Positions 37,374-60,001 of a stretch of 64,000 nucleotides of DNA are shown here, piece after piece (the stretch's first letter is position 1; each line of letters begins with the position of its first letter). Position numbers and translations under genes: made by a program. The DNA is taken from NCBI RefSeq assembly GCF_000426305.1, contig NZ_KE384518.1, positions 62,001-126,000 of the forward strand, read 5' to 3'. Below the pieces are notes generated by a model. The model was not told the DNA's origin. It saw only the letters and a program-made list of their open reading frames with translations, and did not search any database. This DNA comes from Anaerovorax odorimutans DSM 5092 (lineage in GTDB: Bacteria; Bacillota; Clostridia; Peptostreptococcales; Anaerovoracaceae).

Positions 37374-37557
37374 TGTTTAACCGTTACTGAAAACTTATAA
37401 AAAGTTATAAACTTTTATGTTTCATTCCTACTTCTTAGTGTCTGTTTTTGTATTAATAAATTAACACTACTCACATTTGATACAACACTCCATAGGCTTA
37501 AATTCCTGTTTAACGTACAGTACATATCTATAGTAATTTTTAAAGATTTTTAAAGTA

Positions 37558-57860: not shown

Positions 57861-57889
57861 TTTACAAAATATTTTAATTGTGCTATGAT
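57861..57889 (+). promoter_or_regulatory. Promoter of the aromatic biosynthesis operon
   Basis: TTTACA (57861-57866), 17-bp spacer, TATGAT (57884-57889). Transcription would start near 57896, 30 nt before the leader peptide. Confidence 0.7.
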
Positions 57890-57924
57890 GGTAAAAATTA
57901 TCTTAATTAGTTTTGGAGATTAAA

Positions 57925-58035
57925 ATGACAAATTGTATTTTTGCAACTGAATGGTATTACGTTAGCTTTATTTCTTATTATTGGAATAAGGCTTATTTGA
58001 GTTTCACCGCAAAAATGCACTGTTATTCTTCTTAA
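57925..58035 (+). CDS. Aromatic leader peptide
   Basis: 36 codons from ATG 57925 with TTGGAGAT as ribosome site. Eleven of the 36 residues are aromatic: six Tyr, three Phe, two Trp, clustered in EWYYVSFISYYW. It ends 30 nt before a strong terminator that precedes aroF. This is the classical leader-peptide attenuator design: ribosome stalling on scarce aminoacyl-tRNA (mostly Tyr) prevents termination. Confidence 0.88.
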   Translation: MTNCIFATEWYYVSFISYYWNKAYLSFTAKMHCYSS

Positions 58036-58065
58036 ACTGATTAAAATTCTAAGAGAAATAATTGG

Positions 58066-58098
58066 GCTCCGTAGTGAAATTCACTACGGAGCTTTTTT
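58066..58098 (+). terminator. Attenuator terminator of aroF-tyrA
   Basis: GCTCCGTAGTGAA (58066-58078) and TTCACTACGGAGC (58080-58092) are complementary, followed by TTTTTT. The leader segment TGAGTTTCAC (near 57998-58007) can pair with GTGAAATTCA in this hairpin, offering an antiterminator. Confidence 0.9.
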
Positions 58099-58137: not shown

Positions 58138-59148
58138 ATGATAGTAATCTTAAAAAACGATTCAAATGAAAAACAACTAAATAATCTTATTACTTGGTTA
58201 AAAAGTTTAGATATTGATATTCATTTTTCAAAAGGGAAAAATACAACTATTATGGGGCTCATAGGAGATACCGAAGTTGTGGATATTGATTTAATCAACG
58301 CATTGGATATTGTGGAAGATGTCAAGAGAATTCAAGAGCCTTATAAAAATGCTAACAGGAAATTTCATCCAGAAGATACAATCGTAGATATAAACGGTGT
58401 GAAAATAGGGGGCGGAAATTTTCAAATTATAGCAGGGCCATGCTCCGTTGAATCTGAAGAGCAAATTTGTTCTATTGCAGAAAGTGTAAAAAAATCCAGA
58501 GCAGGGCTGCTCAGAGGCGGTGCTTTTAAACCCCGTACCTCTCCTTACTCATTTCAAGGGATGAGAGAAAAAGGCATAGAATTACTTTTAGAAGCTAAAA
58601 AAGTTACAGGCCTTCCTATTGTCACAGAAATAATGGATCTATCTCATCTTCATTTGTTTGAAGAAGTAGATATGATTCAAGTAGGGGCAAGAAATATGCA
58701 AAACTTTGAACTGCTTAAGGAACTTGGTAAAACAAATAAACCTATTTTATTAAAGCGAGGTCTTTCAAGTACTCTTCAAGAATTCTTAATGAGTGCCGAA
58801 TACATCATGGCAGGCGGTAATGAAAATGTTATTCTTTGTGAAAGAGGAATCCGTACATTTGAAACGGCAACAAGAAACACTTTAGACCTTTCCGCAATTC
58901 CTTTATTAAAAACTATGACACACTTACCAATTATTGTTGACCCAAGTCATGCTACAGGACTTTCTAAGCTGGTAAAACCAATGTCTCTTGCTGCAACAGC
59001 TGCTGGTGCAGATGGATTACTTATAGAAGTTCATAATGATCCTGTTCATGCTCTGTGTGATGGTCCTCAGTCATTGACACCGGAAGCTTTTGATGATTTA
59101 GCAAAATGCGTAAATAATATTTTACCATTTGCATTTAATGACAAATAA
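58138..59148 (+). CDS. aroF: 3-deoxy-7-phosphoheptulonate synthase
   Basis: A 336-aa DAHP synthase of the type I-beta branch: an N-terminal ferredoxin-like regulatory domain (1-80), then the barrel with IIAGPCSVESEEQI, LRGGAFKPRTSPYSFQG, LLKRGLSSTLQEFLMSAEYI and PIIVDPSHATG. It makes the first intermediate of aromatic amino acid synthesis. The N-terminal domain usually mediates feedback by Phe/Tyr. Ribosome site CGGAGGA. Confidence 0.95.
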   Translation: MIVILKNDSNEKQLNNLITWLKSLDIDIHFSKGKNTTIMGLIGDTEVVDIDLINALDIVEDVKRIQEPYKNANRKFHPEDTIVDINGVKIGGGNFQIIAGPCSVESEEQICSIAESVKKSRAGLLRGGAFKPRTSPYSFQGMREKGIELLLEAKKVTGLPIVTEIMDLSHLHLFEEVDMIQVGARNMQNFELLKELGKTNKPILLKRGLSSTLQEFLMSAEYIMAGGNENVILCERGIRTFETATRNTLDLSAIPLLKTMTHLPIIVDPSHATGLSKLVKPMSLAATAAGADGLLIEVHNDPVHALCDGPQSLTPEAFDDLAKCVNNILPFAFNDK

Positions 59149-59170: not shown

Positions 59171-60001
59171 ATGAAAGTTGGAATTATAGGTTTGGGACTT
59201 ATTGGTGGTTCTATTGCAAAAGCTATTAAACAAAATACTGACAACACAGTATATGGGACAGATATTGTAGAGTCAGTTATATATAAAGCACAGTTATTAG
59301 AAGCAATTGACGGAAAACTTGAAGAAGATATGATTTGTGGGTGTGATCTAATAATAATAGCTCTCTATCCAAAAGATACGATAGATTTTATTAAGTCACA
59401 CGCTGATCAATTTAAGGTAGGCTCTATTATTCTCGATTGCTGTGGTGTAAAAGATATAATCTGCGAGACGGTAAAACCCATTGCTGAAGAAAAGGGATTT
59501 ACCTTTATAGGTGCTCACCCTATGGCAGGAATAGAATACTCAGGTTTTGAACATTCTAAAAAATCCTTATTTAAGAATGCATCAATGGTATTAACACCTT
59601 TTACTAATACAAAAATTGAGATTATGGATAAATTAAAAAAACTTCTCGTCGCTTTAGGTTTTACAAATGTTCAAATAGCTTCTCCAAAAGAACACGACAA
59701 AATTATCGCCTTTACTTCCCAACTTGCTCATGTAGTCTCCAGTGCTTATATAAAAAGTCCTACCGCAGAAAAGCATAATGGTTTCTCTGCAGGAAGCTAC
59801 AAAGATTTATCAAGAGTTGCAAAATTAAATGAAGATATGTGGACAGAATTATTTTTATTAAATAACGAAAATCTGGTTTTTGAAATTGATTGTATAATTG
59901 AAAAGCTCAGTCAATATCGTAATGCCATAAAAGACAGCAATGAAAAAGAACTATGGAATTTACTAAATGAAGGAACTGAAAGAAAAATTTCTATCGGTTA
60001 A
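59171..60001 (+). CDS. tyrA: Prephenate dehydrogenase
   Basis: A 276-aa NAD-dependent enzyme: KVGIIGLGLIGGSIAKAIK (dinucleotide loop), FIGAHPMAGIEYSGFEHS, and FTSQLAHVVSSAYIKS. Makes 4-hydroxyphenylpyruvate for Tyr. ATG 59171 with AAGGAGAAAAGA is chosen over the upstream in-frame ATG that overlaps aroF. Second gene of the attenuated operon, which fits the Tyr-rich leader. Confidence 0.94.
   Translation: MKVGIIGLGLIGGSIAKAIKQNTDNTVYGTDIVESVIYKAQLLEAIDGKLEEDMICGCDLIIIALYPKDTIDFIKSHADQFKVGSIILDCCGVKDIICETVKPIAEEKGFTFIGAHPMAGIEYSGFEHSKKSLFKNASMVLTPFTNTKIEIMDKLKKLLVALGFTNVQIASPKEHDKIIAFTSQLAHVVSSAYIKSPTAEKHNGFSAGSYKDLSRVAKLNEDMWTELFLLNNENLVFEIDCIIEKLSQYRNAIKDSNEKELWNLLNEGTERKISIG

Follow-up and report, generated by a model that had tools for sequence, protein, structure and literature searches.

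The region upstream of aroF and tyrA in Anaerovorax odorimutans DSM 5092 is, with little doubt on our part, a predicted ribosome-mediated transcription attenuator of the trp/phe/his-leader type that would control both genes. The speed at which a short leader peptide is translated would most likely decide whether aroF-tyrA is transcribed. The reading is based on the sequence elements themselves, their conservation, a codon class that fits the function of the downstream genes, and pairings that covary or coevolve; from these we infer ribosome stalling, the direction of the response and the coupling between ribosome and RNA polymerase. The region combines the typical components of such a device: a Shine-Dalgarno-led leader, a run of codons for the pathway products, a terminator, a mutually exclusive antiterminator (2:3) and a protector (1:2) with a 5' arm that a ribosome could mask. 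A leader-peptide attenuator at this position had been proposed in a first-pass annotation of the DNA, and with the support of relatives it is now the best explanation of the locus.

The window analysed here, a 64,000-nucleotide stretch of the genome, carries at 57861-58098 a promoter, a Shine-Dalgarno sequence, a 36-codon ORF and a strong terminator, with aroF and tyrA directly downstream and all features on the forward strand. The sigma-70-type promoter (57861-57889) consists of TTTACA and TATGAT separated by 17 nt, with an extended -10 TG; a consensus scan gave 10 of 12 matches, a score that is weak alone, as shuffled sequences yield more such sites than the real one, although its position suits the leader. 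As read from the sequence, a GGAGA Shine-Dalgarno element (57915-57919) lies 5 nt upstream of the ATG of the leader ORF, MTNCIFATEWYYVSFISYYWNKAYLSFTAKMHCYSS (57925-58035), whose 36 codons plus stop include the eleven aromatic codons that the first-pass annotation had counted: six Tyr, three Phe and two Trp. The terminator that it had described is also present, as an intrinsic terminator with a T-tract at 58064-58098 (segments 3:4), with a hairpin at 58064-58094 of 14 pairs including G-U and a 3-nt loop; the number of terminator-like sites expected in shuffled sequences was 0.0. The first gene (58138-59148) encodes a DAHP synthase with a ferredoxin-like regulatory domain (PF00793, 1.7e-75; PF18152, 3.8e-21; TIGR01361 above cutoff), and the second (59171-60001) a prephenate dehydrogenase (PF02153, 1.8e-25; PF20463, 7.4e-16). 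The leader element occurs in a single copy in the A. odorimutans genome.

The full leader folds at -67 kcal/mol, compared with -35 +/- 4 kcal/mol for dinucleotide shuffles (z -7.7), and the fold without the terminator still gives a z of -5.6. In the full fold, the Shine-Dalgarno sequence and the bases preceding it (57903-57919) pair with a stretch that runs from the last part of the ORF past its stop (58028-58044); among the folds compared, this sequestration was not consistently common to the near relatives of the window leader. Elsewhere in the window, a RAGATH-18 RNA was detected on the reverse strand (37425-37496; 72.8 bits, gathering score 44.9).

Four pairing elements can be delineated in the leader RNA. 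Segment 1 (57935-57952), the 5' arm of the protector stem, coincides with conserved FA(A/T)E codons and pairs with 58002-58018 in the MFE structure. Inside the protector lies a hairpin, P1 (57964-57993), with arms at 57964-57974 and 57983-57993 that form 11 pairs around a loop of 8, whose bases cover the codons for Tyr18 and Tyr19 and run into that for Trp20. Segment 2 (57998-58018) can pair either with segment 1, as the protector, or with segment 3 (58071-58083), the loop-proximal part of the 5' arm of the terminator, as the antiterminator. The antiterminator pairing that had been considered plausible is indeed present, with UGAGUUUCAC (57998-58007) and GUGAAAUUCA (58074-58083) forming ten contiguous pairs. 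The earlier picture thus held for antiterminator and terminator but lacked the protector and the nested hairpin P1, both of which were found here.

Comparison with relatives supports each of these helices. In 30 relatives, 95.5% of the cells of P1 were paired and six of nine pairs had changed on both sides, while the terminator helix reached 99.3% with covariation in 10 of 10 pairs; for the two helices together, the 30-sequence alignment gave 97.5% of cells paired, compared with 39-51% after sliding, and changes on both sides in 16 of 19 pairs. The antiterminator was followed over 59 loci, where it gave a z of -3.1 against dinucleotide shuffles; in a symmetric permutation of partners among loci, segments 2 and 3 paired at -15.9 kcal/mol with their own partners versus -11.2 kcal/mol with those of permuted loci (z -13). 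The protector likewise favoured its own partner (-13.2 versus -10.4 kcal/mol for permuted loci; z -8.4), with 83.7% of cells paired against 26-47% when slid and modest covariation, and the MFE structure paired segment 2 with segment 1 in 41 of 59 leaders. It is visible in most of the folded near relatives of the window leader. In the window itself, the outer part of the protector, AUUUUUGC (57937-57944) with GCAAAAAU (58009-58016), spans 8 bp; four mismatches separate it from an inner part, and the single-locus z is only -0.7. A first cross-locus test of 2:3 was dropped as biased, because segment 2 had been picked for its own partner. Two further pairings were also dropped, as they were at chance level over the 59 loci: the 3' arm of P1 with segment 2 (mean z -0.3) and segment 2 with a copy of segment 3 within the leader tail (mean z +0.3).

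The conservation of the leader was examined with a fixed rule, namely an ORF behind an SD, 12-50 codons long and located 30-300 nt before the gene, in which a stretch of 14 codons has at least six aromatic residues. Such a leader was found before 77 of 109 aroF relatives, and by the identical rule before none of 58 control genes (leuA and trpE); the alignment of relatives that the first-pass annotation had suggested as a check thus came out in favour of conserved aromatic codons. The leader ORF with its Shine-Dalgarno sequence keeps its position in relatives, and it is predicted to be translated. Cultured relatives such as Oscillibacter valericigenes (L068) and Anaerotignum also carry this leader. 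A covariance model built from 30 leaders (R1) was run on 80 named loci and gave a match directly before aroF in 63 of them (E<=3.4e-4); 27 of the named loci had gone into the model, and 36 of the other 53 matched. Because the named loci all belong to the closest relatives of this aroF, their match rate is no description of the phylum. At large R1 is patchy: with strict filters and E<=1e-4, it matched in 42 of the order's 297 genomes and in 12 of the 398 examined from the phylum. Low-scoring matches antisense to the same terminators were disregarded, and three further matches (L144, L145 and L146) were set aside since a convincing leader ORF or target gene was lacking. Some close aroF relatives with R1 matches lie in MAGs labelled Flexilinea, Planctomycetia, Thermoguttaceae, Lentisphaeria/Oligosphaeraceae and Treponema (L012, L017, L030, L035, L042, L043 and L066), which reflects either horizontal transfer of leader and aroF together or misbinning. 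In other families of the order, aroF genes that are less closely related (L105-L109, L111 and L112) carry a second and different type of aromatic leader, e.g., NSYFSWGYYFSAGYLFYKK, that is mostly missed by R1.

The composition of the leaders points to the probable signal. Phe and Tyr account for 19.0% and 13.8% of the residues in 62 aroF leaders and Trp for 0.1%, so of the Tyr/Phe/Trp signal proposed earlier the first two are retained, and the two Trp codons of the window leader do not appear to be a conserved signal. The codons also follow the function of the genes. Standalone pheA leaders in three genomes are Phe-only (MRNFTDKNANFSFTFNFTFFRGKGFLSLLNKV, MHRTHTAATFFFDSFTFNNRSKACFAVVR and MRIMNRTFFFSFTNFVFNKDKAFCIC), and one tyrS leader has a Tyr-Tyr-Tyr run (MTTFLRNRSHKQAYYYLFS). 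In many genomes of the family, pheA lies downstream in the same gene cluster as aroF; the ratio Tyr/(Tyr+Phe) in aroF leaders was 0.67 where pheA is elsewhere (n=4) versus 0.47 where it is in the cluster (n=14), a difference with a Mann-Whitney p of 0.005 in a statistic that ignores phylogeny. The leader is therefore predicted to sense charged tRNA-Tyr and tRNA-Phe. In A. odorimutans, pheA belongs to a second operon, aroF2, aroB, aroC, pheA and aroA, at about 250460-255500 (G000:C1; L151, 2460-7502), which is preceded by a T-box (RF00230, 108.6 bits). Since A. odorimutans is thus one of the genomes with pheA elsewhere, in which aroF leaders are more Tyr-biased, Tyr, together with Phe, is the likeliest signal at the locus studied here. 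Tyr-tRNA, the signal named in the first-pass annotation, is thus likely to be the dominant one, with Phe added to it.

Based on these elements, the following mechanism can be proposed. RNA polymerase would begin near 57896, and a ribosome would load on the leader at once. With ample charged tRNA-Tyr and tRNA-Phe, the ribosome would pass the aromatic codons and reach the stop, whereupon segments 1 and 2 would pair, enclosing P1, and segment 3 would be left free for the 3:4 terminator to halt transcription ahead of aroF, at about 58095. Under a shortage of Tyr or Phe, the ribosome would stall in the aromatic run and mask segment 1, so that segment 2 would pair with segment 3 and transcription would read through into aroF-tyrA. 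As a speculation, P1 may act as a pause hairpin. To model the switching, the RNA under a ribosome footprint was masked at each codon in turn, and the transcript was folded as far as segment 3. Most of the 20 leaders examined formed the antiterminator with the ribosome on the aromatic run and lost it beyond this run, often up to the stop; because equilibrium folding ignores kinetics, this supports the logic of the switch and is no proof of it. For the window leader, stalls as far as about Tyr12 gave the antiterminator and stalls at Tyr18-Trp20 did not. This outcome varies with the cut point of the transcript (the share of segment 4 that it contains), and one setting had the antiterminator return with the ribosome at the stop codon.

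Several other explanations of the locus were weighed against an attenuator. The terminator might be run by a small-molecule- or tRNA-binding RNA, such as a T-box or a trpB-motif-like riboswitch, with the ORF being incidental. The trpB motif (RF04312) does give a weak full-length alignment of 30.2 bits, and a T-box governs the paralogous aro operon of the same genome; however, the alignment falls short of the gathering score of 59 and is carried mainly by the terminator, no T-box (RF00230) reached its gathering score in the window leader or in 20 loci of aroF relatives, and the conserved RNA lies mostly within an ORF whose codon class tracks gene function. We consider this explanation very unlikely. 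The trpB motif, the PyrG leader and other sub-threshold Rfam matches were rejected, as their signal came mainly from the terminator. Little credence, again, can be given to a TnaC-type arrest peptide, in which the nascent leader, inside the ribosome, would respond to free Tyr or Phe and not to the charging of tRNA. The leader peptide is indeed short and aromatic, and the tail FGKA-x-x-x-LA recurs among the leaders; yet the tail is accounted for by the RNA pairing of the P1 3' arm and segment 2, and the peptides vary widely while the density of aromatic codons is kept. Moreover, biosynthetic genes need derepression on starvation, which is the opposite of the TnaC logic.

Two simpler readings disregard the RNA switch. 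That the ORF encodes a functional microprotein, with a terminator that merely tunes basal expression, is hardly credible: the good promoter, Shine-Dalgarno sequence and start codon would suit it, but the ORF has no Pfam or NCBIfam match, its conservation is limited to aromatic density and the RNA-forming codons, and an antiterminator that coevolves with segment 2 is unexpected for a microprotein gene. The aromatic count of the leader, for its part, ranks only 5th among the 253 ATG ORFs of 20-50 codons in the window, with four ranking above it, so that aromatic richness by itself is ordinary for the AT-rich DNA of the window and could suggest an accidental Phe/Tyr-rich ORF in intergenic DNA beside an ordinary terminator. 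Judging from the relatives, what goes beyond chance is the retention of the leader, the codon class and the pairings; with conservation in dozens of genera, covarying helices and no leader in the 58 controls, chance can be practically discounted.

The attenuator type may reach beyond the aro genes. The same Tyr/Phe leader precedes a gene of the sodium:solute symporter family (PF00474) in three genomes of one genus (L166, L167 and L174; at about 1500-1670), e.g., MSKRINIANEYYYFYFGFTGVDSKVNLRCWND in L166. As the control codons follow gene function, leaders can predict substrates, in this case an aromatic amino acid for the symporter of the three genomes, which is thus a candidate importer of such amino acids. 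Branched-chain-rich leaders with the same layout of hairpin and terminator were observed before ilvB, one of them Ile/Val-rich in a Lentisphaeria MAG (MSISLASTTIVIIISVIVLLGVSALRVLPENS; L030, 2243-2376, reverse strand) and one Val-rich in genome G640 (MFSLAHIVNVVAVVVSVVVVYNAVLRCAEQECR; L182, reverse strand), and Leu-rich leader ORFs, e.g., MISLFTNAIAIINITLLLGLLLVVLLLSHAKLAIYCK, precede leuA (2-isopropylmalate synthase) in two genomes of the phylum (L187 and L186). The leaders that R1 found before symporter, ilvB and leuA genes reflect either common descent or convergence on the combination of hairpin and terminator. A general habit of leader peptides was not found, as the upstream regions of leuA (order) and trpE (phylum) had no convincing Leu or Trp leaders; several of them bear T-box motifs. 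A tentative extension, to which we attach a rather low probability, is that a single scaffold (P1, segment 2 and a GCAG-type terminator) has been given new codons and transferred among operons and phyla. It would serve Tyr/Phe for aroF-tyrA and the symporter, Phe for pheA, Tyr for tyrS, Val for ilvB and Leu for leuA, and would possibly span Clostridia as well as the Lentisphaeria, Planctomycetia and Flexilinea MAGs. If true, this would be a modular regulatory cassette, and its codons would reveal the substrates of unannotated genes.

The trp, pheA and his leaders of E. coli combine a short leader rich in product codons with alternative 1:2, 2:3 and 3:4 pairings and an intrinsic terminator. The A. 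odorimutans leader resembles them in its pathway-product codons, its set of alternative pairings and its terminator, and differs in its target, aroF-tyrA, and in having a separate hairpin, placed around the late control codons, within its protector. Rfam Phe_leader (RF01859) scored 20.3 bits at the leader, below its gathering cutoff of 55. No Rfam family matches the leader, which consequently goes unannotated in many gut and rumen Clostridia.

Amino-acid genes in Firmicutes are usually described as being under T-boxes, TRAP or riboswitches, and the first-pass annotation had accordingly called a leader-peptide mechanism unusual. This holds insofar as the type is patchy in the wider phylum, but it is common among aroF relatives, and S. 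aureus, Bacillus, Lactococcus and Acholeplasma already provide known or predicted leader-peptide attenuators. The closest of these is the uORFC-13-1 motif (Brewer et al. 2021; PMC8632094), a predicted Phe-coding uORF with a terminator directly before the Acholeplasma aroF, which was reported only from Acholeplasma and environmental sequences (24 representatives with at least one Phe codon). Compared by its text description, it shares with our leader the Phe codons in a uORF, the terminator and the adjacent aroF, whereas the present leaders are from Clostridia, are rich in Tyr as well as Phe, and have a defined protector, nested hairpin and antiterminator. The leucine-rich attenuator peptide of S. 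aureus ilv-leu, supported by reporter evidence (Kaiser et al.; PMC5794164), is likewise a leader-peptide attenuator in Firmicutes, but it concerns branched-chain amino acids in Bacilli and has a different sequence. The His leader peptides of Bacillus were reported as the first outside Proteobacteria and Actinobacteria (Naville and Gautheret; PMC2965389), and a hisZ leader peptide is also present in C. difficile (PMC4833913); these hisS/hisZ leaders similarly take the place of T-boxes, but they use histidine codons before genes of the tRNA-synthetase family. Tyr/Phe leaders before aroF-tyrA in Clostridia were not found in open-licence full texts; the survey of Lopatovskaya et al. 2010, known here through its citation in PMC4833913 and PMC10272879, could contain one.

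The T-box (RF00230) resembles the proposed attenuator in that tRNA charging is sensed and a terminator is switched, but differs in that tRNA is bound directly and no translation is needed. A. odorimutans therefore appears to possess two operons for DAHP synthase isozymes with two sensors of tRNA charging, a T-box for the one and a translating ribosome for the other, the latter being an E. coli-style switch in bacteria thought to use mainly other RNA sensors.
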